The notes under the pieces: model-generated
What the model was told of the DNA's origin: nothing
What the model saw: only the letters and a program-made list of their open reading frames with translations
The model's database searches: none
Program-made: the position numbers and the translations under genes
Assembly: GCF_030156785.1 (NCBI RefSeq)
Contig: NZ_JASGLW010000006.1
Coordinates: 1-64,000, forward strand
DNA length: 64,000 nt
From: Methanohalophilus sp.
GTDB taxonomy: Archaea; Halobacteriota; Methanosarcinia; Methanosarcinales; Methanosarcinaceae
Reading direction: 5' to 3'
Part shown: in pieces, positions 7,050 through 42,850 of the stretch
Layout: each line of letters starts with the position of its first letter
How positions within the stretch are numbered: the first letter of the stretch is position 1

Positions 7050-8819
7050 TCAACCTGTTCTCCTGAAAAGTCTTGCAAGTTCATCCATAGTCAGGCGAAT
7101 AACTGTTGGTCTCCCATGGGGGCAGGTAAACGGATTCTCAGCCATTTCAAGCTGCTCCAGCAAATTCCTCATCTGTGCAACTGTGCAAGAAGCCCCCGCC
7201 TTAATCGCAGCCCTGCAGGCCATTGTCTTGTACATATGATCATAAATACTACTTTTATCCTGTATCCTGCCGGTTGAGAGAATTTCAGAGACTAGATCAC
7301 GGATGCCAGAAGGATCCTGCACTTTTCCGAAAACATGCGGGACTGCTGTTATAATATAGGTACTGGGACCAAATTCCGAAATAGCAAAACCCATCTCTTC
7401 AAAATAGGGTATATATTCCTGCATTATTACTTTTTCCCGAGGCGTCAGATCAATAGTCACAGGCTCCAGAAGTTCCTGCCAACCCCCGGCTGCTTTTTTG
7501 CGTATTTGCTCATACATTATCCTTTCATGTGCAGCATGCTGATCAATTAGCATAATCCCGTCTTCGGTCTCCACAATTATGTAGAGATTATGCACCTGCC
7601 CCACTACCCTCATATCCTTCAAAACAAATGCGACATTGTCCGGAGATTTTCCTTCAAGTTCCCTTTCAGATCGTTTGAGGCGCCTCTCGGTGTCTTTTAA
7701 CGGTGCCCTGTATGCAGCTTTGCTTTCCTTTATGACAGGACTTCCAGCTTCATGCACAGGTTTTCCAGAATGCAGGGAAGTCTGGAAAGGTTGTTTTTTT
7801 GCCAGTTTCGCTTCAGGAACAAGTTCCTGATCAGCAAGAGTATTCTCCACCGCCCGGGTAAGATCATCCATTACATCGGATTCACGACTAAAACGAACCC
7901 TGCGTTTTGCAGGATGCACATTTACATCGACTTCCCTGAGGTTTACACGCACATCCAGAACAGCAAGAGGATATCTGCCCTTTGGGAGAAGCGTGTAGTA
8001 ACCAAGAAGTATGGCATTGCTCATGGCCACTGAAGCAATACTTCTTCCATTAACGAAAAAATACTGCATGTCTTTCCCGGTCCGGCTTATCTCGGGTTTG
8101 GAGATGTAACCTGAAACAGTTACCAGTTCCCCCTCATAGTTTACCGGAAGCATGGATTTTGCAATATCGCTTCCAAGCAACTGGATTATCCTGTCAAATA
8201 TGTCACCTGCAGGTGCACGAAGTGTCACCCGGCCTTCGCTTACGAGTGTAAATGACACCTGCGGATTGCCAAGTGCCAGACGCATTACCGTATCAGTTAT
8301 GTGGGAAAGTTCGGTTCTGGGACTTTTAAGATACTTGCGCCTTGCAGGAGTGTTGTAAAAAAGATCTTTCACTACAACTTTTGTCCCAGGAGATGAACCA
8401 ATTTCACTAACTTCCTCAACGATCCCGCCGTTTACATGCACCTTCACGGCAGATAGGGCATCATGTTTCCTGCTCACAAGTTCCACCCGGGAAACTGCAG
8501 CAATGGAGGAAAGAGCCTCACCTCTAAATCCCAGTGTCAGAACAGCTTGAATGTCTTCAATGTTTTTGATCTTGCTTGTTGCGTGCTTGGTGAATGCAAG
8601 TCTGGCATCCTCCCGGCTCATTCCCTCGCCATTATCCATGACCGAAATCATTTTAGAACCTGACCCCCTTATTTCCACTCGAATATCAGTAGCAGAAGCA
8701 TCAATGGAATTTTCAACAAGCTCCTTAACAACCGATGCCGGGCGCTCTATCACCTCCCCTGCTGCGATTTTATTGATGGTTTCTTCATCCAGCACATGTA
8801 TACGATGATTGTCATCCAT
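7050..8819 (-). CDS. mutL: DNA mismatch repair protein MutL
   Basis: A 589-residue protein. The N-terminal GHKL ATPase is complete: ENSIDA near residue 37, DNGEGM near 62, and a GFRGEALSSI lid. The C-terminal half carries the endonuclease metal site DQHAAHERIMYE near residue 430 and CPHGRP at 566-571. This is therefore a nicking MutL, as in organisms without MutH. The start overlaps the end of mutS by 8 bases, so the two are translated together. MutS1/MutL are bacterial in origin and occur in few archaea, mainly Methanosarcinales and haloarchaea. Confidence 0.95.
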   Translation of the reverse strand: MDDNHRIHVLDEETINKIAAGEVIERPASVVKELVENSIDASATDIRVEIRGSGSKMISVMDNGEGMSREDARLAFTKHATSKIKNIEDIQAVLTLGFRGEALSSIAAVSRVELVSRKHDALSAVKVHVNGGIVEEVSEIGSSPGTKVVVKDLFYNTPARRKYLKSPRTELSHITDTVMRLALGNPQVSFTLVSEGRVTLRAPAGDIFDRIIQLLGSDIAKSMLPVNYEGELVTVSGYISKPEISRTGKDMQYFFVNGRSIASVAMSNAILLGYYTLLPKGRYPLAVLDVRVNLREVDVNVHPAKRRVRFSRESDVMDDLTRAVENTLADQELVPEAKLAKKQPFQTSLHSGKPVHEAGSPVIKESKAAYRAPLKDTERRLKRSERELEGKSPDNVAFVLKDMRVVGQVHNLYIIVETEDGIMLIDQHAAHERIMYEQIRKKAAGGWQELLEPVTIDLTPREKVIMQEYIPYFEEMGFAISEFGPSTYIITAVPHVFGKVQDPSGIRDLVSEILSTGRIQDKSSIYDHMYKTMACRAAIKAGASCTVAQMRNLLEQLEMAENPFTCPHGRPTVIRLTMDELARLFRRTG

Positions 8820-13440: not shown

Positions 13441-13867
13441 AAACTGGCTCTCTTGTTTAACATAAATTTGATGGTTTTGTTGTTTTTGGAGTGGAAATAA
13501 AGGGGTTTTCGATATCTGTCGCGAGGATTGTTTCATTGAACAGGAACAAATGGAAGACAACCTAACAGCACAAATGTACTTGTGGAAAGGATGAAGTCAG
13601 AATCGTAACCATCACAAATACGAATACAGGCGAAAAATCATAAACGAAAAGACTTCTGGTTTGTCTGATACGTTTGTCCCTCCAATGCACAAGTTTACTT
13701 GCTTAAAGGCGATGGATTCCCGCATGTGGAAGTTCAAGTGAAACTTGTAGTAGAAAAGCATCGAGTAAATTTGATAAAAAATGGATAAAACAAGCAAAGT
13801 TCCCTTGGCCAATGTCAAACGGCCTTACATTCCCAAAGCGAATTTTGGAAATTGAATATCGGGTTTT
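13441..13867. other. Intergenic region without a supported gene
   Basis: About 430 bases between the ABC exporter promoter and the tRNA gene. Short open stretches exist on both strands, including one of 68 codons on the minus strand at 13612-13818. None has a ribosome site plus a recognisable protein. On the plus strand fragments in different frames (for example GDGFPHVEVQVKLVVEKHRV around 13710-13770) hint at a decayed coding region, but I cannot name it. Confidence 0.35.
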
Positions 13868-13945
13868 TGGTGGGGCCGCTGAGATTTGAACTCAAGTCGC
13901 AAGACCCCCAGCCTTGCAGGATGGACCAGGCTACCCTACGGCCCC
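13868..13945 (-). tRNA. tRNA-Pro (anticodon GGG), CCA end encoded
   Basis: On the minus strand a complete cloverleaf can be folded. The acceptor stem is GGGGCCG/CGGCCCC. The D arm has AGCCTGGTCC. The anticodon stem CAAGG/TCTTG encloses the 7-base loop CTGGGGG, giving anticodon GGG. The T arm is TTGAG-TTCAAAT-CTCAG. A discriminator A and an encoded CCA follow. There is no intron. Confidence 0.95.
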
Positions 13946-20391: not shown

Positions 20392-21516
20392 TTACGCTAA
20401 AGATGCAAGATCATCAAGGAATTCAGAAATAATATCTTTGTTAAGATGAGGCATAACCACAAGTCTGAGGGACTGCGGATTATGAGTGACCGAGACTCTC
20501 CACCCATATTCTAAGAGCAGGCGTTTCTGTAATTCTACGGGTGAATCCATTTTCAGGCATACAATATTCATAACCGGATCAATTACAGTGGAAAAACCTC
20601 TTTCCTTTGCACCTGATACCAGATACCGTGTCATGTCCATACAATTATCAACTACTTTTTTGTAGCCATCCATTCCAAGATGCATCATGACAGCATAAGT
20701 TGCAGCCACAGCAGCCCCGCTTCTGGTACCTGTAAGGGAGCTCTGGGTCTTTACTGTAAGGTACGGAGTATGAACAGAAAGGGATTCAAGAAGCGATTTA
20801 TCTCTGAAAAGAAGACCACCCGAAGGAATTGTGCTTAAACCCATTTTATGCGGATCTATTGTAATGGAAGAAACACCTTCAACTTCAAAATCATACGAAT
20901 AATGCTTTTCCAAAAATGGAATTACAAAACCACCAAATGCTGCATCCACATGTAGGAACAAATCATTTTCTTCTGCAATTAAAGATAGTTGCTGGATATC
21001 ATCTATCTGGCCAAATTCAGTGGTACCCGCAATACCCACAAGTCCAATAGTATTCTCATCAATCAGGTTTTTTACTGAGTCAATATTAACGCGAAGATCA
21101 GGATCTAATCTGGCCCGTCTCATTTCAACTCCTGTGAGATTACCTGTTTTCTCAAACGAGAAATGAGCTGAAGAAGGCAAAACTACGTTTGGCTTTTTTG
21201 AAATGCTGCAGTTTTTCATGGCACGAATAGCTTGGATATTTGATTCTGTACCTCCTGTACTGAGATAGCCACAGGCATCTGGTTTGTGAAGCAATTTTCC
21301 AAGAAGATTTATGACTCTCTCTTCCAGAATTGTTGTACCTTTAAAAAGTCCAGGATCACCCATATTTGTTTCAAGAAAATCCTGATGGACTGATGCTGCT
21401 ATAGGATGAGGATAAGTACACATAGAACTAAGAACTCTTTCGTAAGGTGTATCAAGTAGTTTTATCTTAGCAAGATCAGCAAGTACATCTTCTTCAGAAA
21501 CTCCATTTTTGTTCAT
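20392..21516 (-). CDS. mfnA: L-tyrosine/L-aspartate decarboxylase MfnA
   Basis: A 374-residue pyridoxal-phosphate enzyme of the group II decarboxylase family. The PLP lysine lies in [11 protein letters not shown] near residue 229, with the upstream [10 protein letters not shown] motif. The N-terminal part ([22 protein letters not shown]) is typical of archaeal MfnA. The enzyme makes tyramine for methanofuran, and aspartate decarboxylation for coenzyme A is a second known role in archaea. Together with ftr it marks a methanogen. The gene's 5' end faces the replication origin. Confidence 0.9.
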
Positions 21517-21610
21517 CAGGATCGATGTAAAAATAGCATTACTTAGTTTAAATGATTTGTCTTTGCTTTTTGATCTAATTTAAAAAATAGGATTTAAAAA
21601 ATAGGAATAA

Positions 21611-21636
21611 GGGCACCCCATGATTTCTTCTGGAAA
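21611..21636 (-). other. Origin recognition box A (inverted)
   Basis: On the minus strand it reads TTTCCAGAAGAAATCATGGG followed by GTGCCC. It matches the boxes at 21897, 21935 and 22059, including the G-string that distinguishes archaeal ORB elements. It points away from the AT-rich segment to its right. Confidence 0.8.
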
Positions 21637-21654
21637 TTAAGTGATTTGGATATC

Positions 21655-21870
21655 ATTTTGGCATTATTAAATTTTAGGATAATCTGAATATATTAAATAA
21701 TAAAAATTGTACAAAAATGTTTTTCAAAAAACTTAAACATTTTTAAATAACAAAAATTTAATTATAATTAAATTTATTATAAAAGTGTTAATTTATATTA
21801 TTGATTTATAGTTAATTATAAATACTATTTTTCCTATATTTACACGACTATCTTTTTTTCATTTTTTATT
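21655..21870. other. AT-rich duplex-unwinding segment of the origin
   Basis: About 215 bases made almost entirely of A and T (for example aaatttaattataattaaat around 21755). It lies between an inverted origin recognition box on the left and three direct boxes on the right. This is the expected place and composition for initial strand opening. No coding sequence is present. Confidence 0.75.
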
Positions 21871-21890
21871 AAAGATGCTTTTGCATCTTT
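21871..21890. repeat. Hairpin inside the origin
   Basis: AAAGATGC-TTTT-GCATCTTT is a perfect 8-base stem with a 4-base loop, followed by further T residues. It sits at the edge of the unwinding segment, directly before box B. It may be structural or a transcript end. Confidence 0.55.
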
Positions 21891-21896
21891 TTTTAA

Positions 21897-21922
21897 TCTC
21901 CACACGAAATAATAGGGTGCCC
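21897..21922 (+). other. Origin recognition box B
   Basis: TCTCCACACGAAATAATAGG followed by GTGCCC. It is the most divergent of the four boxes, but shares the CGAAAT core, the G-string and the GTGCCC tail with box A in the opposite orientation. Confidence 0.7.
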
Positions 21923-21934
21923 TCTTTTTATATA

Positions 21935-21960
21935 GTTTCCAGTAGAAATTAAGGGGTTTT
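21935..21960 (+). other. Origin recognition box C
   Basis: GTTTCCAGTAGAAATTAAGG followed by GGTTTT. It has the dyad TTTCCAGTAGAAA and G-string of the archaeal ORB and shares TTTCCAGTAGAAAT with box D. Confidence 0.82.
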
Positions 21961-22058
21961 GGTTTAGCTCAATCTTAAAACCAGAAAAATTGGTTATCCA
22001 ATATTTTTCTGAAAATAATTACCTTTTAAACTATATGATTAAACTTTTATTATTTATA

Positions 22059-22084
22059 TTTCCAGTAGAAATGATGGGGTCTTC
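22059..22084 (+). other. Origin recognition box D
   Basis: TTTCCAGTAGAAATGATGGG followed by GTCTTC. It is a near-exact copy of box C, in the same orientation, about 120 bases closer to orc1/cdc6. Confidence 0.82.
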
Positions 22085-22138
22085 ACCATAAACATTAATA
22101 GGTTCAGTTTCCATTGCATTTGTTACAGCTTTATCACT

Positions 22139-22229
22139 ATACAAGACAAGAAACATACAAGACTTGATTATACAGAAAAACCAATATTATCGGGCTTTTC
22201 TGACTTATCAAATGAAACTTATCGAATGA
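22139..22229 (+). repeat. Short direct repeats in the orc1/cdc6 upstream region
   Basis: ATACAAGAC occurs at 22139-22147 and 22155-22163. ACTTATCAAATGA at 22203-22215 is followed by ACTTATCGAATGA at 22217-22229, just before the ribosome site. They could be regulator sites for the initiator gene. No binding protein is known to me. Confidence 0.4.
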
Positions 22230-22251
22230 ATTTTAATTGGAAGGTGTTTAC

Positions 22252-23496
22252 ATGGCTAACGAGTCATTAGAGTCATTAGACGGATTATTTCAGGAGTTAT
22301 TAGAATCCGAGTCGTTGTTTAAGAACAAGGAAGTATTGCGTCCTTCATATACTCCTGATACATTGCCTCACAGGAGTGATCAAATAAACAGTCTGGCAAT
22401 GATATTAGTTTCCGCTTTGAAGGGTGACACTCCTTCCAACATTCTAATTTATGGGAAGACCGGAACAGGCAAAACTGCTGTTGCGAGATATGTTGGAATC
22501 GAACTTGAAAAGAAAAGCGAAACTTTGCATGTACCATGTGTTGTGCTCTACATTAATTGTGAGGTAATAGATACTCAGTATAGGCTTCTGGCCAATCTTG
22601 CAAAACAGTTTGGTGAAGATGTACCAATGACAGGATGGCCTACTGATCAGGTTTTCTTCAAATTTAAGGAAGCAGTTGATGCAAACAAACAGGTTGTAAT
22701 TATTATTCTTGACGAGATTGACAAATTGATCAAGAAAGGTGATGATGTTCTTTATAATTTATCTAGGATCAACACTGAACTCCAAAATGCAAAAGTTAGT
22801 ATGATTGGAATTTCAAATGATCTTAAATTTACTGAATTTCTTGATCCAAGAGTGAAGAGTTCCCTTGGTGAAGAGGAAATTATTTTTCCGCCTTATGACG
22901 CCGAGCAGATAAGTGATATTCTCAGGCACAGGGCAGGGATCGCCTACAAAGAAGGATCACTGAGTGAGATGGTAATTCCATTGTGTGCGGCGTTTGCAGC
23001 TCAGGAACATGGTGATGCTCGCCGAGCTCTTGATCTCCTGAGAGTTGCAGGTGAGATTGCAGAAAGGGAGAAGAAAAATCAGGTTGAAGAAAGACATGTA
23101 AGGCAGGCTCAGGAGAAAATTGAAACAGATAGGATTATTGAAGTAGTTCGGACTCTTCCTACCCAATCCAAACTTTCTCTTTACAGTGTAATGCTACTTC
23201 GAAACCACGGTTACAGGAATGTCACTACAGGAGAGGTGTATAATGTCTACAGGCAACTCTGCAGGAATGTGGACATGGATGTACTGACCCAGCGCAGGGT
23301 AACAGATTTGATTTCCGAGCTGGACATGCTTGGTATTCTCAATGCAATTGTGGTGAGCAAGGGAAGATACGGGCGCACTAAGGAAATAGTCTTAAGTGTT
23401 CCCCTTGAAAGCACAAAAAAAGTTTTGCTTGAAGATTACCGCCTGAATATGCTGGCAGATTTCAAACCGGTAATTACTGCACAGATGCATCTATAA
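22252..23496 (+). CDS. orc1: Replication initiator Orc1/Cdc6
   Basis: A 414-residue initiator that binds origin boxes and loads the MCM helicase. The AAA+ ATPase has Walker A YGKTGTGKTAV near residue 75, Walker B VVIIILDEIDKL near 160, and sensor-2-type HGDARRALDLLR. The C-terminal third (from about 300) is the winged-helix DNA-binding domain. I start at the ATG at 22252 because GGAAGGTG lies 5 bases upstream. A TTG at 22237 further up lies within this ribosome site. It lies beside the four-box origin, the usual arrangement in euryarchaea. Confidence 0.95.
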   Translation: MANESLESLDGLFQELLESESLFKNKEVLRPSYTPDTLPHRSDQINSLAMILVSALKGDTPSNILIYGKTGTGKTAVARYVGIELEKKSETLHVPCVVLYINCEVIDTQYRLLANLAKQFGEDVPMTGWPTDQVFFKFKEAVDANKQVVIIILDEIDKLIKKGDDVLYNLSRINTELQNAKVSMIGISNDLKFTEFLDPRVKSSLGEEEIIFPPYDAEQISDILRHRAGIAYKEGSLSEMVIPLCAAFAAQEHGDARRALDLLRVAGEIAEREKKNQVEERHVRQAQEKIETDRIIEVVRTLPTQSKLSLYSVMLLRNHGYRNVTTGEVYNVYRQLCRNVDMDVLTQRRVTDLISELDMLGILNAIVVSKGRYGRTKEIVLSVPLESTKKVLLEDYRLNMLADFKPVITAQMHL

Positions 23497-33657: not shown

Positions 33658-34827
33658 TTACCAAAGATCGCCATTCCACATGGCTTTGGTTTTGTCACTG
33701 GTACTCCGATTAATCTTGTGTATGCTGACCAGGTATTCGTCACCGACCTTTTTCGGTTTACTGAAAATAGCTTCAAGCCCGAGCATCCTTGAGTAATCCT
33801 CAAATTCTTCAAGGGTTTCCAGATTCTTGACACGGATGAGAACATCATCAAAGATTTTTTCATTCTTTTGGACTTTCAGCACAGTCTCAATCATAGGGTT
33901 GAGAATGCTCTCACCAAGCCTGAGACAGCGGGCACGCCGTTCTTCTTCACTTTCTTTCCATTCGGCACTCTGGAATCCTTCCCGAACCACGCGGGAAAAA
34001 AGGTAGTCTCTACCAACATCATTGTAGAATTTGAATGCATGCAGTAGATCTGAGCAATTGCTCTGTGAACATGTGTATTTTATGGGAGGTATAATCATGT
34101 CGGGATCCTTGATAACCACTCCTTCATGTCCAATTTTGCCCAGTTCTTTTATATGTTTAAAGATGGCTTCAGTTGCCTCTTCTATTTTATACTCGCCAAG
34201 CAGAGGAACCTGAAAAAACCCATATTTTTCTGCAAGCTGGCGCCGTCTGGAAGTTGGTATAGGTTTTCCAGTATTCTTTTTCCGGATATCAAACACAAAA
34301 AAGGCAAGTGATTTAATTCCATAGATATCCTTTGGAACATAAGGATTTTCCGGACCTACCATCTCCCCGTGTAGTACATAATCAGGATGATCCCTGAAAA
34401 AATCAATATTTAGCAACAGGTTTACTTTTTCAGTGGAATACGGGCAGACATTACCGCCACGGGTGAGTGCAATAAGTTTATCCTGAAAAAGAATAACACG
34501 GACATTGTAACCGTTCATTTTCTCTTCGACGCAAAGAATTTCGGTGTTTATAAAATGCTTTTTGATAGCGGGCTCAAGTAACATTGCCCTGCGGATTTTA
34601 GGAAATCCGTGTATTAGTTCAAACTTACCGTTTCCTTTCTGGTAAAGTACACTTCCGCGTTCGATGCTGGAAACGGAAGTTTCAAAATGGAAAAGTTGCT
34701 GGTATTTCCCTTTATTTGGGACCAGCAGTCTGCGTTCAATAAGATCTTCAAGTCTTTTCTCAGGAATATCAAGATATCCCGCAGCCTTTGGGATATCCAG
34801 TATTCCTTCATCTGCTCTTTTTAACAT
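33658..34827 (-). CDS. ATP-dependent RNA ligase, Rnl3 family
   Basis: A 389-residue member of the archaeal Rnl3 nucleotidyltransferases (relatives of the Pyrococcus Pab1020 ligase). The adenylated lysine lies in [10 protein letters not shown] near residue 101. Other nucleotidyltransferase motifs follow: [14 protein letters not shown] (motif III region), FFVFDIR, and HEGVVIKDP (motif IV). A C-terminal dimerisation region follows. These enzymes circularise or join RNA ends. Its start overlaps the end of a CBS-domain gene by 7 bases, so the ligase is probably the last gene of the CBS operon. Confidence 0.87.
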
Positions 34828-35627
34828 GTTATGTCAGCATTTTTCAGAAGATTGCATGCCAGCATTTTAAGGAGATTCCTCCTTGTAATAAATCCCACCA
34901 TCTCATTTTCAAGGTTCATTACAGGAACACCTCCAATATTCTTTTCCAGCATAATCCTGATCACTTCGGAAACAGGAGTGTTTGTTTTCACAGATTGTAC
35001 ACCTGTTTTCATGATATCCTCAACGATCAGGTTCTTGATCCTGGAATCCTGCTGGTTTTCCGGAACAAGCTCCCTGAATGCTTTCATGGCTTGTGCAATA
35101 TCTTTTTCAGTAACTATTCCTATTAAAGTTCCGTTTTCAACTACAGGGAATCTTCCCATATCTTTTTCAAGAATAAGCCGTCTCACATGGCTGACCCTGT
35201 CGGCAGGTGATACAATCACAGGTTCCTTGTGCATGATTTCTCCTGCATAGCCGTCAAATTCCATATTTTCCATGATTTGCTGTGGTGTGACCCATCCCAG
35301 AACATTCTCATTGTCTGTGACAATTACAATGCCACCGTTTTTTGCCATCAGGATAATTACATCGTCTACTTCTGTGTCAGGCAACAGCTTGATGAAGTTA
35401 TCTGAAACCGCAGTAGCCACATGCAAAGAAGATGCAGGTTTTGCTCCTTTTTTACGGGTTCCAAGCTCCTTGGTAAGATTTCTCATAGTCAGTATTCCAA
35501 GAAGATTGTTGTCATGAGTTACCAGAAGTCTTCTGGTATTGTTTTTTTCCATCAGATCCAATGCATGGGAAAGTGTATCCCCTTTATCGACTTCTATTGG
35601 CTGTACCATTATGTCCTGTACTTGCAT
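34821..35627 (-). CDS. Four-CBS-domain protein (CBS array, gene 5 of 5)
   Basis: A soluble 268-residue protein made of four CBS repeats and nothing else. Each begins with an xxDIM-type motif or variant ([42 protein letters not shown]) and ends with a GI(V/L)T..D/N strand. CBS pairs usually bind AMP, ATP or SAM and regulate partners. It is the last of five tandem CBS genes and overlaps the RNA ligase start by 7 bases, tying the two in translation. Confidence 0.9.
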
Positions 35628-35657
35628 TTCAAATCCCTCTCTGGAAACTAATATTTT

Positions 35658-36500
35658 TTATGCATTACGTATTACATCGGTTCTACTCAGTATTCCAATG
35701 ATATTTCCTTCCTTCTCAACAGGAACACCGGTAAGATTCTCTTCAACCATCAGTTTTGCTGCCACAGGAAGTGTATCTTCAACATTTACAGTTCGATCTG
35801 GTTCCACCATAATATCTTCAGCCACCAGCGGAACATTCTTTATATACCTGTATGTTTTCTCACCTCCAGGTGTTGGCCGACGTGCCATTTTAATACTCTT
35901 TCCTGGTAATTTTCCTTCGTAATCATTGAACATAGTCAGGGCCAGATCCCTTGTAGAGATCATACCTACAATTTTTCCGGCATCGTTTTCTACGAGGATT
36001 TTGCTCACTTTATTTGCTTCAAGTTCATCTATTACATGATTGATTGTATGATGACGATGAACAATCACTGGCTCACTGTCAAGAACTTCACCAATTTTAA
36101 CTCCGTCAGTTTTTTCCCCGATGTATCTAAGTATGTCTCCGATGGTTACAATTCCAAGAAGATCGTCGCCATTGACTACAGGCAGATTATTGATGTTGTT
36201 TTCAAGGAGTAGCTCAATTGCCTGTTCAATTGAAGCATTCGGGTAAATAGTTACCAGAGGCTCTTCAGTCATCACTAGACGGATGGGTATTTTTCCGATT
36301 GGGCGCCTTCTCCACATTGGCTCTGCCTGAGCAAGTCTCCTTGCAATATCGCTTTTTGTTACAATTCCGACCATTTTTTCTTCTTCTGCAACTATAAGAG
36401 TACTAATCTTGTGCCTCAGCATAAGGTTTCTGGCGTGCGATATCGGTTCATCAGGCCCAATAGCATATACTGGAGAGCTCATTATGTCGGCAATTTTCAA
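35658..36500 (-). CDS. Four-CBS-domain protein (CBS array, gene 4 of 5)
   Basis: A 280-residue protein of four CBS repeats (ADIMSSPVYAI, LVMTEEPLVTI, GEVLDSEPVIV, EDIMVEPDRTV). I place the start at a TTG at 36498-36500 because TGGAGGA lies 6 bases upstream. The longer frame from 36545 would overlap the previous gene and has no ribosome site. A linker of about 25 basic residues (LPGKSIKMARRPTPGGEKTYR) separates repeats 3 and 4. Confidence 0.88.
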   Translation of the reverse strand: MKIADIMSSPVYAIGPDEPISHARNLMLRHKISTLIVAEEEKMVGIVTKSDIARRLAQAEPMWRRRPIGKIPIRLVMTEEPLVTIYPNASIEQAIELLLENNINNLPVVNGDDLLGIVTIGDILRYIGEKTDGVKIGEVLDSEPVIVHRHHTINHVIDELEANKVSKILVENDAGKIVGMISTRDLALTMFNDYEGKLPGKSIKMARRPTPGGEKTYRYIKNVPLVAEDIMVEPDRTVNVEDTLPVAAKLMVEENLTGVPVEKEGNIIGILSRTDVIRNA

Positions 36501-36522
36501 AATAAATCCTCCATTGTAAAAT

Positions 36523-37473
36523 TTATGTGTGTTTTGCAAGTGCAATAAGAATGTCCTTTTCGGTTATTATCCCTTTCAGTTTCCCGTTTTTAATAACAGG
36601 TAGAGAACTGATCCCCTTTTCATCCATTATTTCTGCTGCTTTGCCGAGATCAGTTTCGGGTTCAGTCCAGACTACATCCTTTGCGATCAGTGAACCTACA
36701 GGTTCGTCAAAAGCTTCATGTACATTTCCGGTTATCAGTTTTTCAAAGGCTTCACCACCTCCAACATACTTCACAATGTCAAAGGCGGTGATAATCCCAA
36801 CGAAAATACCTTCTTTAACTACAGGCAGGCGCTTGAAATGTCCTCCTACCATTATCTTTGCTGCATCCCACAGGCTTGTGTTATAATCTGCTGTTTTGAC
36901 CCCCTCTTTCATAAGTTGTCTGACTTTAATACCTGTTTTAATACTGCTAATTAAACCCAGAAAGTCCTTTTCTGTGCAAATTGCTACAAGCTGGTCATCC
37001 TGATCAACGATTGGCAGGCTTCCAATATTGTTTTTTGTCATCAATTCAAAGGCGCGGTTAATGCTTGATGTCATTGGAAGGGAATAAACATCATGTTGCA
37101 TTATCTCCCGGATTTCAGCGTTTATCGAAGCGAGCAAATTTCCTTTAAATTTCTTTTCAACAAAAAGACTTTTAGCCCCTCCTCCAAAAAGATCAAGTAT
37201 ATCAAAGGATGAAATGATTCCTTCAAGCCGATTTGTCCCGGCATCTGTTACAGGCACATGACGAATTTTTCCTTTTGTCATGGTTTTCAGGGCATCAATA
37301 ATAGGAGTGGTGGGTTGAACTGTTACAACGTTTCTTGTTGCAATGGACATAATATCTCCCTCATGTTGTGCAATGCGATCGTGGAACTGCACAGGCCCCA
37401 CATCCATTATACTCTCAGAACTAAAGGCATGAGGGTTCTTTCTGGGGCTATCCCGTATTGAAACATCTTTCAT
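36523..37473 (-). CDS. Four-CBS-domain protein (CBS array, gene 3 of 5)
   Basis: A 316-residue protein with four CBS repeats preceded by a short polar N-terminus (MKDVSIRDSPRKNPHAFSS). The repeats start near HEGDIMSIATRNVV, REIMQHDVYSL, RQLMKEGVKTA and AKDVVWTEPET. A strong GGAGGT ribosome site precedes the ATG at 37471-37473. The first pair contains an insertion with IISSFDILDLFGGGAKSLF, which is shared in type with the third repeat's ITAFDIVKYVGGG. Confidence 0.9.
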   Translation of the reverse strand: MKDVSIRDSPRKNPHAFSSESIMDVGPVQFHDRIAQHEGDIMSIATRNVVTVQPTTPIIDALKTMTKGKIRHVPVTDAGTNRLEGIISSFDILDLFGGGAKSLFVEKKFKGNLLASINAEIREIMQHDVYSLPMTSSINRAFELMTKNNIGSLPIVDQDDQLVAICTEKDFLGLISSIKTGIKVRQLMKEGVKTADYNTSLWDAAKIMVGGHFKRLPVVKEGIFVGIITAFDIVKYVGGGEAFEKLITGNVHEAFDEPVGSLIAKDVVWTEPETDLGKAAEIMDEKGISSLPVIKNGKLKGIITEKDILIALAKHT

Positions 37474-37592
37474 GTTTTACCTCCATCTTTATATCTTCAA
37501 TATCTTTTGTGTGTGCTTTGCGCTCAATCAGACAATCAAAAATTGATGTCACGGTTTTAGGCAAAATTTATTCCTGAAAAGTCACAAACCAC

Positions 37593-38360
37593 TCAGGAAT
37601 TATCTATACATGCCCGTAACAGGTCATTGCGATCTATAATCCCAACAATTTTGGAATCATCGACCACAGTAATCCTCCCCACATCTTTACGCAGAATAAT
37701 ATCCCTGCATTCTTCAAGGGATGTCTGGGGGTTCACTGTATATGCAGGCGTTGACATAATACGCTCTACCGGAGGCAGATTTTTGGGTTTACTCTTATGA
37801 CTATCGCTAAGTCCCACCCTCACAAAACCAGCCTTTATGATGTCCCTTCTTGTTACCATTCCAACTAATTGTTTCTTTTTGGAAAGCACTGGTATTCCAG
37901 TATAATCGTGGTTGAGCATGGTAGCCCATACCTTTGAAACGCTATCTTCAGGTTCGCAAGTCACAACTTTCTTGCTCATGATAGCCGAAGCATTCAGTCT
38001 ATTTTTTGAAGGGAAACTGATGTTGCGAAGTAAATCGGAATTGCTTACGATCCCTTCGAGATGTCTTTCATTTTCAGATCTGATGACAGGACATCTCTCA
38101 ATATTTGCTTCAAGCATCATTTTTGCAGCCGCTATTATGTCACATTCAGGATAAATAAGTGGACATTCCCTGATAAATCCACTAACGGTTACATCAGATC
38201 GTGTCGAAGTGATGTTTAACACGTCTTGATCCGTGATAATTCCCCTGACGTTCTCATCATGGTTAACCACAGGAATGCCCCTTAAAAAGTGGTCTCTCAT
38301 AAGCTGGCGTGCATGTGTTACAGTACTGTCTTCGTAAACGTAGACTACATCCTTTGACAT
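37593..38360 (-). CDS. Four-CBS-domain protein (CBS array, gene 2 of 5), start uncertain
   Basis: A 255-residue protein with four CBS repeats. The first ATG (38358-38360) lies inside the first conserved motif: reading upstream in frame gives QIKDI before MSKDVVYV, exactly where related proteins read M-Q-x-x-D-I-M. A GGGGGA ribosome site at about 38385-38390 is spaced for a start at 38376-38378, but that codon is ACG. Either translation begins at a non-standard codon or the ATG has been altered. Coordinates here use the canonical ATG. Confidence 0.85.
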   Translation of the reverse strand: MSKDVVYVYEDSTVTHARQLMRDHFLRGIPVVNHDENVRGIITDQDVLNITSTRSDVTVSGFIRECPLIYPECDIIAAAKMMLEANIERCPVIRSENERHLEGIVSNSDLLRNISFPSKNRLNASAIMSKKVVTCEPEDSVSKVWATMLNHDYTGIPVLSKKKQLVGMVTRRDIIKAGFVRVGLSDSHKSKPKNLPPVERIMSTPAYTVNPQTSLEECRDIILRKDVGRITVVDDSKIVGIIDRNDLLRACIDNS

Positions 38361-38430
38361 AATGTCTTTTATCTGCGTATTAGATCCCCCTTTATTTGCA
38401 GATGCAATTCGTTATTTTAGATTTAGGTCC

Positions 38431-39033
38431 TCAATCGAAATATCCTTCATCATCCATGCAGTCTTCACAAAGCATTAGTCCCCCGGTTTCGGTCAAGACA
38501 TCTACATAGGCACCACAGCGCTGGCATATTCCCCTTCCTGTTTCCCCTACTTCAGGAAAACTGGTTTCTTCGTTCATCTCAATGAGATTTTCAAGGATAG
38601 TATTGAGAACAGGTGAGATGGAGAGAATATCCCTATCCGTGATGATACCTATTATGTCACCCCCTTTTGAAACTGCAAGTCTTCTGATATTCGATTTGAC
38701 CATTATTTTGGATGCGTCAATAATACTTGTGGATGGTTCTGCCGATATTATTGGGGAGGACATTATCTCCCCGGCCTTTACAGTACTTGGGATCGCATCC
38801 TTTGTAGTAACCTTCCCAACTATATCTCGTTCGGTTATTATTCCTACGGCTTCATCACCCTTTGTCAAAATAATGCTTCCAACACCTTTTTTCATCATTG
38901 TGTTAGCAACTTCAAGGACAGTACTGGAAACGTCCAGTTCTATAACAGATTGGTTCATAATTTCACTAATAGGAACCTCACTTTCGATGCCTTGAAAAGA
39001 TGAGTTTTTGCCTTGCAGGACCAATGGTCTCAC
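38431..39033 (-). CDS. CBS-pair protein with C-terminal zinc ribbon (CBS array, gene 1 of 5)
   Basis: A 200-residue protein: two CBS repeats (SEIMNQSVIEL and GEIMSSPIISA) then a zinc ribbon (CQRCG..LCEDC) in the last 35 residues. CBS plus zinc-ribbon proteins are an archaeal type and the ribbon may bind nucleic acid or a partner. It is first in the minus-strand array. A TATA box (atatatatgc on the minus strand) lies at 39061-39072, about 30 bases before the ATG, so the message should be almost leaderless. Confidence 0.88.
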   Translation of the reverse strand: MRPLVLQGKNSSFQGIESEVPISEIMNQSVIELDVSSTVLEVANTMMKKGVGSIILTKGDEAVGIITERDIVGKVTTKDAIPSTVKAGEIMSSPIISAEPSTSIIDASKIMVKSNIRRLAVSKGGDIIGIITDRDILSISPVLNTILENLIEMNEETSFPEVGETGRGICQRCGAYVDVLTETGGLMLCEDCMDDEGYFD

Positions 39034-39060
39034 ACTCCATACATTACTATCTTCCCAATA

Positions 39061-39072
39061 GCATATATATCT
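39061..39072 (-). promoter_or_regulatory. TATA box of the CBS array
   Basis: On the minus strand agatatatatgc is a near-ideal TATA box about 30 bases upstream of the first CBS gene. It lies just 3' of the RPA gene and would allow the array to be transcribed independently of it. Confidence 0.55.
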
Positions 39073-39084
39073 ATCTGATTGTAG

Positions 39085-40212
39085 TTACAGAATAACAATA
39101 CGGCTCTGTCTTCCTGCATTTAATTCTACCTCATCATTAAACCCTGTTTTAGCATATGCATCTATTATTTCCATCTCCGTATCGATGTCAACCTTTTCCA
39201 CAATTTCCGCCATATCGTCCCAGAGGGTCACACGTATGCGTCCGGTTTCATCTGAAATATAGACATTGGAGACTCTTCCTATACTGCCATCCTTTCTGGA
39301 AAACTCTCGAACCTCTCCGATGCCTGAAACAAATCCCTTTACAGAGTAACTTTCCCCCGGGATTATATCAGAAATGGGAGTAAAATCTTCCTGATACAAA
39401 ATTTCAGAATCTGTTTTTCTGATTACACCGTGTTTTCCAATCTGGATTTCAACTTCATCATTGAAGTTATTCAGACGTGCATAACCATTGATAATTTCTA
39501 TGGGAATACCTTCATGCAGGCTACTGTCAAGTTCTGCTTTTTCATCCCACAATGTAACTCTGATTTTTCCGGTCTCGTCCCCTACCAGAATATTGCGAAC
39601 TTTTCCTTCCCCACCTGTTTTCTTTGAAAAAGTCCGAATATCCGAGATCTGCAGGATAACAGCATTAATGTTGATGTCGGAATCGTTTTCTTTTATATCG
39701 GCTATTTTCATGGAAGGTAATTCAACCTGTATATCTTCGTCAATTTCTTCAATTCCACCATATCGTCCCACGTTGATTTCCAACCCGGAATAACCTTCTT
39801 TAACATATCCGCTGATCCGGTATGATTTTCCTGCTTTAATTGTTCCGTTGGTAATCTGATCTGCCAGTTCATCCCAGACGGTTACACGGATAGATCCGCT
39901 GTTGTCTGCAATTATGAAGTTCCCAACTTTTCCGGTAGTCCCATCATTTCTGGAAAATTCGCGTGTATCAAAAAGAGAGATAATTTTTCCCACAACATAG
40001 ACATTGGAGCTGTTCTCATTAATGTCAGCTATTTTTGTAGGCTCATGAGTAGCATCTGTTATTCCCAGATCACTTGCAACAAGCAAAGCGATGGTTTTCT
40101 TATCACAAAGGGGTCCCATTTTTTCAGTTTTTTCATTAATCCTTTGAAGGAACTCTTCTTCGGAAACGATGCTTGATAATTTCTCATAAATAGGGGCTAT
40201 CTCGTTATCCAT
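39085..40212 (-). CDS. Replication protein A (single-stranded DNA binding), three OB folds
   Basis: A 375-residue protein with an N-terminal helical region (1-60) and three repeated OB folds at about 70-160, 165-260 and 275-370. Each repeat carries the same signature of an xFS(R/K)xxGxxGK/RVxN strand and IRVT(V/L)WD (FDTREFSRND, SDIRTFSKKT, GEVREFSRKD). There is no zinc finger, which distinguishes it from the two-OB zinc-containing paralogues of Methanosarcina. I start at the ATG at 40210-40212 with AGGTG 6 bases upstream. It coats single-stranded DNA in replication and repair. Confidence 0.88.
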   Translation of the reverse strand: MDNEIAPIYEKLSSIVSEEEFLQRINEKTEKMGPLCDKKTIALLVASDLGITDATHEPTKIADINENSSNVYVVGKIISLFDTREFSRNDGTTGKVGNFIIADNSGSIRVTVWDELADQITNGTIKAGKSYRISGYVKEGYSGLEINVGRYGGIEEIDEDIQVELPSMKIADIKENDSDININAVILQISDIRTFSKKTGGEGKVRNILVGDETGKIRVTLWDEKAELDSSLHEGIPIEIINGYARLNNFNDEVEIQIGKHGVIRKTDSEILYQEDFTPISDIIPGESYSVKGFVSGIGEVREFSRKDGSIGRVSNVYISDETGRIRVTLWDDMAEIVEKVDIDTEMEIIDAYAKTGFNDEVELNAGRQSRIVIL

Positions 40213-40368
40213 TATAAACACCTGAAAGATTTGCAGATCATTGTCTTTAATCGGGCTTTTTAGGGGAGAAGTTTTGTAGAGAAGGTGATAAAGTTAACGA
40301 GAGATTGAAGATCAAGGACCAAGAGTTTTCCGATAAGGTAATTAAGTATAAGGACTCTCAGTGTTAGC

Positions 40369-40998
40369 ATGATTCGCAGTTGTCAAGAACATGGTTATTT
40401 CCGGGGGGGAAATTGCCCGGAATGTGGTGAAAAGGGGCGTTTCTTATTGGATGATGTAAGGGAGCAAAAACTTGGTCGTTTTGTTTCTGGCGCTCTACGC
40501 CATTTTCCTGATGATCTGGGACTCCAGATGGATTTACAGGGTTGGGTTGATCTTGACAGGTTTTGTGGCGTCATGAAAAAACGTTACCCATGGAGTAGTG
40601 AAGATCGTCTGATTGGTCTTGTGGAATCTGATACTAAGAATAGGTATGAGATTAACGGCAGATACATAAGGGCACGATATGGTCACTCAGTGGACGTAGA
40701 TCTAGATTATCCTCCCTGCGATGCCGAATTTTTGTATTACGGTGTTAGCCAGGAAGAGGTTGAAATGCTTCTGGATCAGGGTATTTCTCCAATCAGGCAG
40801 ACTTATGTACATTTGAGCACTTCAAAGCAAAGGGCAAATGAGGCTGCTTCTGTTCATACAGATAACCCGGTGGTTTTACAGGTGAATGCACTGGAAGCTT
40901 CTGAAGCAGGAATTGATTTCATTAGTGCTAATGAGGATATAGCTCTTACAGATTACGTTCCACCGGAGTTTATTTCCATTGCCGGGGAAGACAATTAA
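40369..40998 (+). CDS. kptA: RNA 2'-phosphotransferase KptA/Tpt1
   Basis: A 209-residue enzyme that removes a 2'-phosphate from RNA using NAD+. An N-terminal zinc-binding segment (CQEHGYFRGGNCPECG) is followed by the two-lobed Tpt1 fold: GRFVSGALRHFPDDLGL, RYEINGRYIRARYGHS (catalytic Arg-His) and later YVHLSTSKQRANEA. In eukaryotes it finishes tRNA splicing. Most archaea splice with RtcB, so its RNA substrate here is open. It is divergent from the RPA gene and lies 5.5 kb from the RNA ligase gene. Confidence 0.92.
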   Translation: MIRSCQEHGYFRGGNCPECGEKGRFLLDDVREQKLGRFVSGALRHFPDDLGLQMDLQGWVDLDRFCGVMKKRYPWSSEDRLIGLVESDTKNRYEINGRYIRARYGHSVDVDLDYPPCDAEFLYYGVSQEEVEMLLDQGISPIRQTYVHLSTSKQRANEAASVHTDNPVVLQVNALEASEAGIDFISANEDIALTDYVPPEFISIAGEDN

Positions 40999-41103
40999 TG
41001 CAAGAGAATTAAATTCCCCTGCATTTACGAGGCACTACATAGTTAATTATCTTTAGGAGGTACCACAAAGTTCTTAAACCCTAACGATAATTAGATGTTA
41101 GCT

Positions 41104-41383
41104 AGTCAAATAATGACTATTTATACATATCATCATGATACCCATTGGGTTTTTGCTATAGATCCAATGGGCTAAAATCCGACATAAATAATTAGAATCA
41201 TCATCGTTGGTTATCAGAAGGTAGCCAATAATCATAAAGAAGCAGAATTTCAGGTTTCATTGCCTCATAGAATGTGTAATTCCAATTTACAATCTTAACT
41301 TGCATGTGCTGTAACAAAACAGAATATGTTGCAAATAGATCACCCAACAAAAGTTGGGTGTAATCAAGTTTATTTGTAAACTT
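41104..41383 (+). ncRNA. Hairpin-rich intergenic region upstream of dnaG, candidate RNA
   Basis: Within the 541-base gap 40999-41539 five inverted repeats follow each other. TAGTCA/TGACTA is at 41104-41120. CCCATTGG/CCAATGGG is at 41141-41171. TTGGTTA/TAGCCAA (one G-U) is at about 41206-41227. CACCCAAC-AAAA-GTTGGGTG is at 41341-41360. AAGTTTA-TTTG-TAAACTT is at 41366-41383. A TATA-like tatttatacat lies near 41117-41127. No protein frame is convincing. A small RNA or long structured dnaG leader is possible; known RNA families were not recognised. Confidence 0.3.
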
Positions 41384-41539
41384 CTAGGGCTCCTGTAACC
41401 AGAGGAGATTTGCCAAATGTCTCTTGGAGAGAGGCATTGAGGCTGAGTTCAGGGGGTATGAAAAACCGTTAGGATATTTTTTGCTTCTTTTGCCTAATTT
41501 TGATTCTATTATTTTGTCTGGTAAAAAGGAGAACTTATC

Positions 41540-42850
41540 ATGCAAAGCAGTGATACAACAAAATACATTATCCATTGCAAACTTAATGCTGACGGGGTTA
41601 TTGAACGTCCTGATATAGTAGGTGCGATTTTCGGTCAGACTGAAGGTCTTCTGGGATCTGATCTGGATCTGAGGGATTTGCAGAAAACAGGTCGAATTGG
41701 ACGCATTGAAGTTATTGTCAATACAAAAGGCGGAAAAACAAAAGGAAATATCCACATTCCTTCAAGCCTTGACAGGATCGAGACATCTATTCTGGCTGCT
41801 TCACTTGAGACCATCGACAGGGTAGGTCCATGTACCGCAAAGATCGAGGTAAGCCAGATAGAAGATGTCCGTGCTACTAAAAGGAAGCAAATCGTTGATA
41901 GGGCAAAAATAATTCTAACTGAAATGTTTGATGAAAACCTCCCGGAATCACAGGAAATTGCGGAGGAAGTCAGGCAGTCTGTTCGAATTGAGGAAATGGA
42001 GTATTATGGGAAAAACAAGATTCCCTGTGGCCCGAATGTATTGGACTCCGATGCAATTATTGTTGTGGAAGGCCGTGCCGATGTCCTGAACCTTCTGAGA
42101 TATGGTATTAAGAACACCATCTGTGTGGGTGGTACAAATGTTCCTCCAGAAGTTGCGGAACTCACAAAGAAGAAAACAGTAACCGCATTTACCGATGGTG
42201 ACAGGGGAGGCAAGCTCATCATCAAGGAACTTATGCAGGTTGCAGACATCGATTATGTCGCTCGTGCACCTGATGGTAAGAGCGTTGAAGATCTGGTCCA
42301 GCGTGAAATTGTGAGGGCGCTCAGGCAAAAAGTTCCTGTTGAACAGGTAATTGATGCTTATTCCATTGAAGGTAGTGCCAAAAGTGCAACTCCTGTAGCC
42401 AAAAAAAGCAGGATAACTCGTGTCCCTAAACGCAAGGAAAGGGCTAAGCCTGAAGTTGCCCGCCAGACATCAAAACTGATAAAACTGGCTGAACCAATAG
42501 AGAGAAAAGAATCACGCCACAGACCCGAGAGAAGATCTCAGTCACGAAGATCTTATCCTCCGGAGGCAAGTCGCTTTAATCAACATTCTGAAGAACTTAC
42601 CGGAACACTTTCCGCTAGGCTTTTGGATGATAAAGATAAGGTAATAAGTGAGACTTCTGTCCGGGATCTTGTTAATACACTTAAGAATTCCGAGGATAAG
42701 ATTAAAAGTGTGGTATTTGACGGTGTAATTACCCAGAGGATTCTTGATATTGCTTCAAGCAAGGGAATCGAAAACCTTGTTGGAGTGAAAAGGGGTAATA
42801 TAGTAAAGAATCCAACTTCTGTAAAAGTTTATACGGCACAAGGAGCATGA
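41540..42850 (+). CDS. dnaG: Archaeal DnaG primase-like protein
   Basis: A 436-residue TOPRIM protein. The domain sits at about residues 170-260 with [12 protein letters not shown] (catalytic Glu) and [10 protein letters not shown] (DxD). The N-terminal domain (1-165) is that of archaeal DnaG, which associates with the RNA exosome and has been reported to have primase activity. A charged linker (about 280-345, many Arg/Lys/Ser) joins a conserved C-terminal segment with [17 protein letters not shown]. The start is firm: AAAAGGAGAA lies 8 bases before the ATG. Confidence 0.93.

Follow-up and report, generated by a model that had tools for sequence, protein, structure and literature searches.

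A probable oriC1-type replication origin beside orc1/cdc6 in a Methanohalophilus-group archaeon, and putative Orc1 outposts in the Methanosarcinaceae

ORBs upstream of orc1/cdc6

The region directly upstream of orc1/cdc6 in this Methanohalophilus-group archaeon is very probably its chromosomal replication origin, of the oriC1 type. A sequence-only reading of the 64-kb window (the whole stretch of DNA analysed, 64,000 nucleotides) had proposed an origin here. Our analysis supports that proposal through the origin recognition boxes (ORBs) themselves, an inverted pair of boxes around an AT-rich element, the adjoining orc1 gene, the rarity of the boxes, and a layout found throughout the order.

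All four proposed boxes are present, with A on the minus strand and B, C, and D on the plus strand. Inner box A (21611–21636), inner box B (21897–21922), and orc1-proximal box D (22059–22084) lie where they had been placed, while outer box C (21936–21961) starts one base later than the 21935 given for it. The pattern said to be shared by the four is exact in A and D and holds in C with one mismatch, but it fits B poorly (4 mismatches). A, C, and D score 32.4, 31.1, and 33.8 bits, respectively, with an order-wide box matrix; these scores are partly circular, as the matrix was built from 256 boxes of the order, drawn from the same orc1-upstream regions and including this genome's own A, C, and D. 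Judged by its sequence, box B is a real box despite its mismatches, because it scores 27.5 bits with this matrix, which was trained without it, lies at an exact 39-bp pitch to C, and forms an inverted repeat with A. The arms of this 31-nt repeat, A and B, are 84% complementary. The TCCA-n-GAAA dyad and G-string are present in the boxes, with a loose fit in B.

The initiator gene (22252–23496, plus strand) encodes a protein of 414 amino acids that matches NF001625 at 709 bits and carries a Cdc6_C winged helix. By sequence, its nearest solved structure is Sulfolobus solfataricus Orc1-1 (2qby_A, E 1.9e-113). It is 88% identical to Orc1 of named Methanohalophilus species and 93% identical to that of G005, a member of the same genus and the nearest relative searched. 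The gene had been said to start 170 bases after box D; the exact figure is 167 nt, taking the ATG at 22252 as the start. An alternative start is possible at a TTG (22237). The draft genome (1.55 Mb in 19 contigs, 94.55% complete) also has a second cdc6-like gene (C9:68426–69517, L017), which is of the NF001624/NF001626 type, 30% identical to the first, and located beside tRNA-Lys. Some 12–20 kb downstream of orc1, the window holds a block (34821–42850) of five CBS-domain genes in a row, followed by genes for an RPA-like OB-fold protein, kptA, and dnaG. Linkage of cdc6 to DP1 in Methanosarcinales, close to predicted origins, has been published (PMC2643942).

Rarity of the boxes and GC skew

A genome-wide scan for the box core TTCCAGNNGAAANNNNGGGG returned four exact matches, three being A, C, and D and the fourth at C10:35477. 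The many equally good copies that would speak against an origin were not found across the genome; the one equal box elsewhere lies upstream of pan. With up to two mismatches, TTCCAGNNGAAANNNNGGGG occurs 19 times in the whole draft, as compared with 10 times for a reversed-pattern control. A sequence-only profile (R1) gave seven matches at E ≤1 in the whole draft, comprising the four boxes, C10:35475, a word in mutL, and a word at 13490; the scores of A, B, D, and the pan box are partly circular, as these are among the 51 words from which R1 was made. No second box cluster occurs among the seven matches in this draft, which is 94.6% complete.

Coding frames such as those of mutL, tyw1, and rtcA do contain chance ORB-like words, and the four boxes could in principle be such words in AT-rich intergenic DNA. 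The likelihood of this is practically negligible. At up to three mismatches, the claimed pattern has three matches in the 64-kb window (A, C, and D; B is missed), against a mean of 0.04 in shuffled windows, and none of 100 shuffles reached three. Furthermore, both the layout and the 39-bp distance recur through the order, and the reversed matrix reached at most 17.7 bits in 1.2 Mb sampled from a complete relative (G006; 2,022,959 bp).

Three sets of coding words were rejected as ORBs and attributed to coding coincidence. The mutL word (8660–8686, 28.5 bits) encodes VEIRGS, and the mutL words of relatives fall at the same motif; the tyw1 words, which score up to 37.5 bits, encode SPVEIMGS; and the rtcA word, the seventh word found at dnaG loci, falls inside that gene. 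An intergenic ORB-like word (23.7 bits) is also present in the window at 13483–13509, between tRNA-Pro (13868–13945) and an ABC-transporter ATPase gene. It has no counterpart place among the matches listed in G005 (seven of eight).

The 1.2 Mb sampled from G006, which left out its pan and tyw1 places, contained seven matrix matches of at least 24 bits: the four origin boxes, one box each upstream of dnaG and hcp, and one word in a coding frame. Within the window, cumulative GC skew is lowest at 21,157, at a distance of ~450 bp from box A. For G006, skew was calculated from 60 samples of 20 kb. Its range is matched in size by none of 10,000 shuffles, and the curve peaks 52 kb away from the position opposite orc1. 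Because the G006 minimum (~559 kb) falls some 154 kb off the boxes and the curve climbs gently between the two, skew supports the region and not the exact spot.

The offset of the G006 minimum from the boxes, together with the ORB clusters of Haloarcula that lack origin activity (PMC3936714), lends something to the notion that the cluster serves mainly to titrate Orc1, in the manner of Haloarcula oriC2D, and that the working origin is another locus. We consider this exceedingly unlikely. There are only four boxes, inverted around an AT-rich element, rather than a dense extra cluster. The draft (94.6% complete), moreover, holds no second cluster, and the second cdc6-like gene at C9:68426 has no match to the R1 profile nearby in a search of the whole draft.

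The AT-rich element

As had been proposed, A on the minus strand and B on the plus strand bracket an AT-rich element (21637–21896), a putative DNA unwinding element (DUE). The A–B interval is 255 nt. "Nearly pure A/T" overstates its composition, which is 85% AT (21640–21894), although the richest 215 nt do reach 87.9% AT. No 215-nt window outside 21400–22300 equals this value in the 64 kb, making these the most AT-rich 215 nt of the window.

The hairpin reported within the element was located at 21871–21890. It has an 8-bp stem and a TTTT loop, is followed by a T-run in the manner of a terminator, and folds with a z score of -4.7. Judged by folding scores against shuffles, the hairpin recurs among relatives, with z < -1 in 40 of 70 regions versus 11 of 70 control windows. 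It is absent by folding from the 18 rows of L103–L126 (0/18 with z below -1), and most families outside the Methanosarcinaceae are without it. Rfam gave nothing at gathering thresholds for 20–24 kb of the window.

The hairpin sits between two T-tracts on the plus strand. The distal tract (21853–21859) is 42 nt before B, and the T-runs of relatives cluster 40–44 nt before B; the proximal tract (21888–21894) is 7 nt before B, with those of relatives clustering at 5–14 nt. Across 70 regions, the 70 nt preceding B contain 92 runs of at least six T (mononucleotide shuffle: mean 19.5, maximum 33 in 500). Orc1 of Aeropyrum prefers T-rich single strands of its own AT-rich region (PMC8287685), which suggests that the T-tracts beside B may serve binding of Orc1 to a T-rich single strand.

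Order-wide anatomy

We compared 110 orc1-upstream regions including this one, 30 from whole genomes and 80 from named contigs, with overlap in species between the two sets. Among the 103 regions of at least 450 bp, 81 have the arrangement A(-)–B(+)–C(+), B–C distances of 33–42 bp having been accepted. The distance is exactly 39 bp in 71 of these 81 (60 of 70 distinct sequences), and the A–B gap ranges from 110 to 535. The recognised A–B–C trio is absent in 22 of the 103 regions, eight of which were examined over 5 kb. At least two loci (L039 and L070) carry three plus-strand boxes 39 bp apart, the second and third of which were scored as B and C. Read in order, the design runs from A through AT-rich DNA that closes with phased T-tracts to B, then a TATA-like spacer, C, and a separable D. 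Spacing, T-tracts, TATA-like word, and D extension all lie outside the training of the matrix and the profile. Helical phasing of C and D was considered and rejected, as their distances scatter.

Inner (A and B) and outer (C and D) boxes are, by their sequences, different types, distinguished by a single base. A T precedes the G-run in most inner boxes (A, 49/70; B, 60/70) but in few outer ones (C, 6/70; D, 4/65). In the present genome, A has this T, and box D carries it as well, contrary to the rule for C and D. The B–C spacer here contains the TATA-like word TTTATATA (21927–21934); TATA-like words are common in the spacers of relatives: 43 of the 53 distinct 39-bp spacers have one, versus 19% of 18-nt windows in AT-rich elements.

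Box D is followed on the plus strand by an extension (22085–22119) consisting of ACCATAA, ATTAATA, and then TTTCCATTGCAT, which we take as a putative orc1 promoter with a half-ORB. The extension is conserved: ACCANAA follows D in 56 of 59 distinct D extensions and TTAAT or TTAAG is present in 55 of 59, with a TTCCATTG-like half-box coming next. At loci of the Methanosarcina type, D is ~0.6–1.4 kb from orc1, and A–B–C is 1.5–4.9 kb upstream, within the 5 kb examined. A sodium:solute symporter gene (identified through PF00474 for L087 and G017) separates A–B–C from D in L081, L087, L096, and G017. From this arrangement we infer that D and its extension form a putative orc1 promoter/operator and that A–B–C is the probable origin core. 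This refines the four-box proposal into two predicted modules, an A–B–C core and D near the orc1 promoter.

The same data bear on whether the boxes might be no more than the orc1 control region, a set of autoregulatory operators, with replication beginning elsewhere. D and its extension do resemble a promoter-operator, and they remain close to orc1 at loci that have A–B–C kilobases off. This separation shows equally that A–B–C is kept even when far from orc1. In addition, the inverted pair surrounds the most AT-rich stretch of the window and lies near a local skew minimum, and the seven R1 matches (E ≤1) include no other box cluster in the genome. A role confined to orc1 control is therefore very unlikely, and we favor a replication origin with a separable D module.

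Binding, melting, MCM loading, and autoregulation at this origin are modelled on other archaea. Orc1 from the adjoining gene would occupy A to one side of the AT-rich element and both B and C to its other side, and this element, set between the opposed A and B, would melt. Orc1 would probably engage the T-rich strand beside B, with its two T-tracts, in single-stranded form, and MCM would load there. The fixed 39-bp pitch of the B–C spacer would hold two Orc1 molecules at a set distance. D and its conserved extension would form the other module and most probably serve as orc1 promoter/operator, with Orc1 controlling its own level.

ORBs away from the origin

The exact ORB outside the window (C10:35477–35496; L004, L127) lies in front of pan, the gene for the proteasome ATPase (NF003069, 554.6 bits), and starts 226 nt from its start codon. 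A pan match at threshold was found in 28 of the 36 genomes searched. Fifteen of the 28 have a box upstream of pan (15 of 23 genomes of the family, 8 of 8 of the genus, and 7 of 14 family genera), scoring 27.0–34.7 bits with the matrix, whose training included no pan boxes, and lying 190–413 nt before the matched pan start. The other 13 genomes have no box above 20 bits upstream of pan. Across eight groups, the 13 core positions of the pan boxes are 97% identical, as compared with 33% for the left flank and 33–47% for the right; the core value is inflated, the boxes having been picked by score, whereas recurrence at one place is not. A short word near ACTGT, ~20 nt past the pan box, looks common to relatives by eye.

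At all 15 box-bearing pan loci, the other side is occupied by a divergent gene encoding a protein of 207–309 residues. This protein (L127 3266–3886 and 13 relatives) has a short N-terminal domain, a long Q/P-rich linker, and a predicted C-terminal winged helix. In the structural model, the winged helix has a pLDDT near 90 and the Q/P-rich middle is unordered (mean pLDDT 65). The protein of the present genome has no Pfam match at E 0.001, and for 14 aligned members of the family (alignment A2) no NCBIfam match is better than 0.017. Foldseek yielded weak matches, led by PerR, Fur, and RosR (lowest E 0.0065). In G011 and G012, which belong to other genera, the divergent gene is present without the box.

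Boxes also occur downstream of the gene for ADH synthase, before glyS where that gene is present. A single box was found in 5 of 30 loci, those of all three genomes of genus g5 and both of g14. Three Methanosarcina-like genomes have three same-strand boxes there: G017 (L181 1707–2391) and G030 (L329), both of g11, and G027 (g8; L332). Besides these, the ADH-synthase box loci are L185, L186, L188, L189, and L198, and none were present in the stretches examined of G008 and G021. These boxes are possibly a titration site or a second origin. Of 30 dnaG loci, six have an ORB upstream, and of 24 hcp loci, four do; every one of these belongs to this genus, in which 6 of 8 genomes carry the dnaG box. 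The dnaG box is absent in the present genome and G005, and the hcp box is likewise not in the present genome. As they belong to part of the genus only and are missing here, the hcp and dnaG boxes were set aside as support for outposts in this genome.

We read the pan box and its like as conserved Orc1 outposts that may serve to regulate genes or to titrate the initiator. The strongest example lies in the intergenic DNA shared by pan and the divergent winged-helix gene. Outposts appear to turn over between genera, as at ADH synthase–glyS, dnaG, and hcp. More generally, we propose tentatively, and with slightly less than even confidence, that the Methanosarcinaceae keep a small set of outposts off the origin, by which Orc1 would reach other genes or be titrated. 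DnaA boxes outside oriC in bacteria offer a comparable reach to other genes or titration. If the pan outpost is genuine, the start of replication would be tied through it to regulated proteolysis or to a new regulator. If outposts are bound, an ordinary origin-binding archaeal initiator would also act at set chromosomal places elsewhere.

Comparison with known origins

Origins of the Orc1 type with inverted ORBs around a DUE are already established (PMC12141716, PMC4010727, PMC5333045), and the origin described here is ordinary in kind, a new member of known origins with a well-conserved anatomy. The single origin of Methanosarcina was listed in a 2017 review as an in silico prediction only (PMC5333045), and that of Methanocella has been predicted through cdc6 and a mini-ORB-like repeat (PMC3146512). 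The order-wide anatomy (two box types, 39-bp distance, T-tracts, and D module) tells exactly which positions could be mutated in Methanosarcina. Of the findings, it is the outposts that merit further work. Precedents include isolated ORBs downstream of ftsZ and of a nifH/nifE gene in one Methanomassiliicoccales genome (PMC4153887) and extra Cdc6-bound regions in Pyrococcus abyssi, with gene regulation by Orc1/Cdc6 put forward as a suggestion (PMC5333045). Our partial coverage of the literature yielded nothing on ORBs at pan or on a Methanohalophilus origin, which is weak evidence of absence.

The locus resembles the Methanomicrobia oriC predicted with Ori-Finder 2/DoriC in its AT-rich element, adjoining initiator gene, and GGGGT consensus, the ORB consensus for that group being TCCA[GC]T[GT]GAAA[CT][AG]A[AT]GGGGT (PMC4164010). 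In comparison with that description, inner (ATRGGG) and outer (mostly AAGGGG) box types are resolved here, as are the 39-bp B–C distance, TATA-like spacer, phased T-tracts, and separable D. In Sulfolobus oriC1, the inverted Orc1-1 boxes ORB2 and ORB3 similarly flank an AT-rich DUE near orc1-1 and are needed (PMC12141716). Sulfolobus, however, has three origins and, in the DUE, a ucm motif and the protein UBP (PMC12141716), whereas T-tracts and a hairpin lie beside box B here.

Haloarcula hispanica is alike in having, at oriC1 and oriC2/oriC2D, inverted ORBs around an internal repeat and extra ORBs off the origin, the extra cluster reportedly exerting negative control (PMC3936714). That cluster, oriC2D, consists of 11 ORBs in 722 bp directly after cdc6E (PMC3936714), whereas each outpost here comprises one box, or three in Methanosarcina-like genomes, at distances that reach hundreds of kb. 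Sulfolobus Orc1-2, a damage-response regulator, likewise represents an Orc1-family protein at promoters, a role that is putative here (PMC9738581). Unlike the initiator considered here, Orc1-2 is a non-initiator and uses an ANTTTC element rather than ORBs (PMC9738581).
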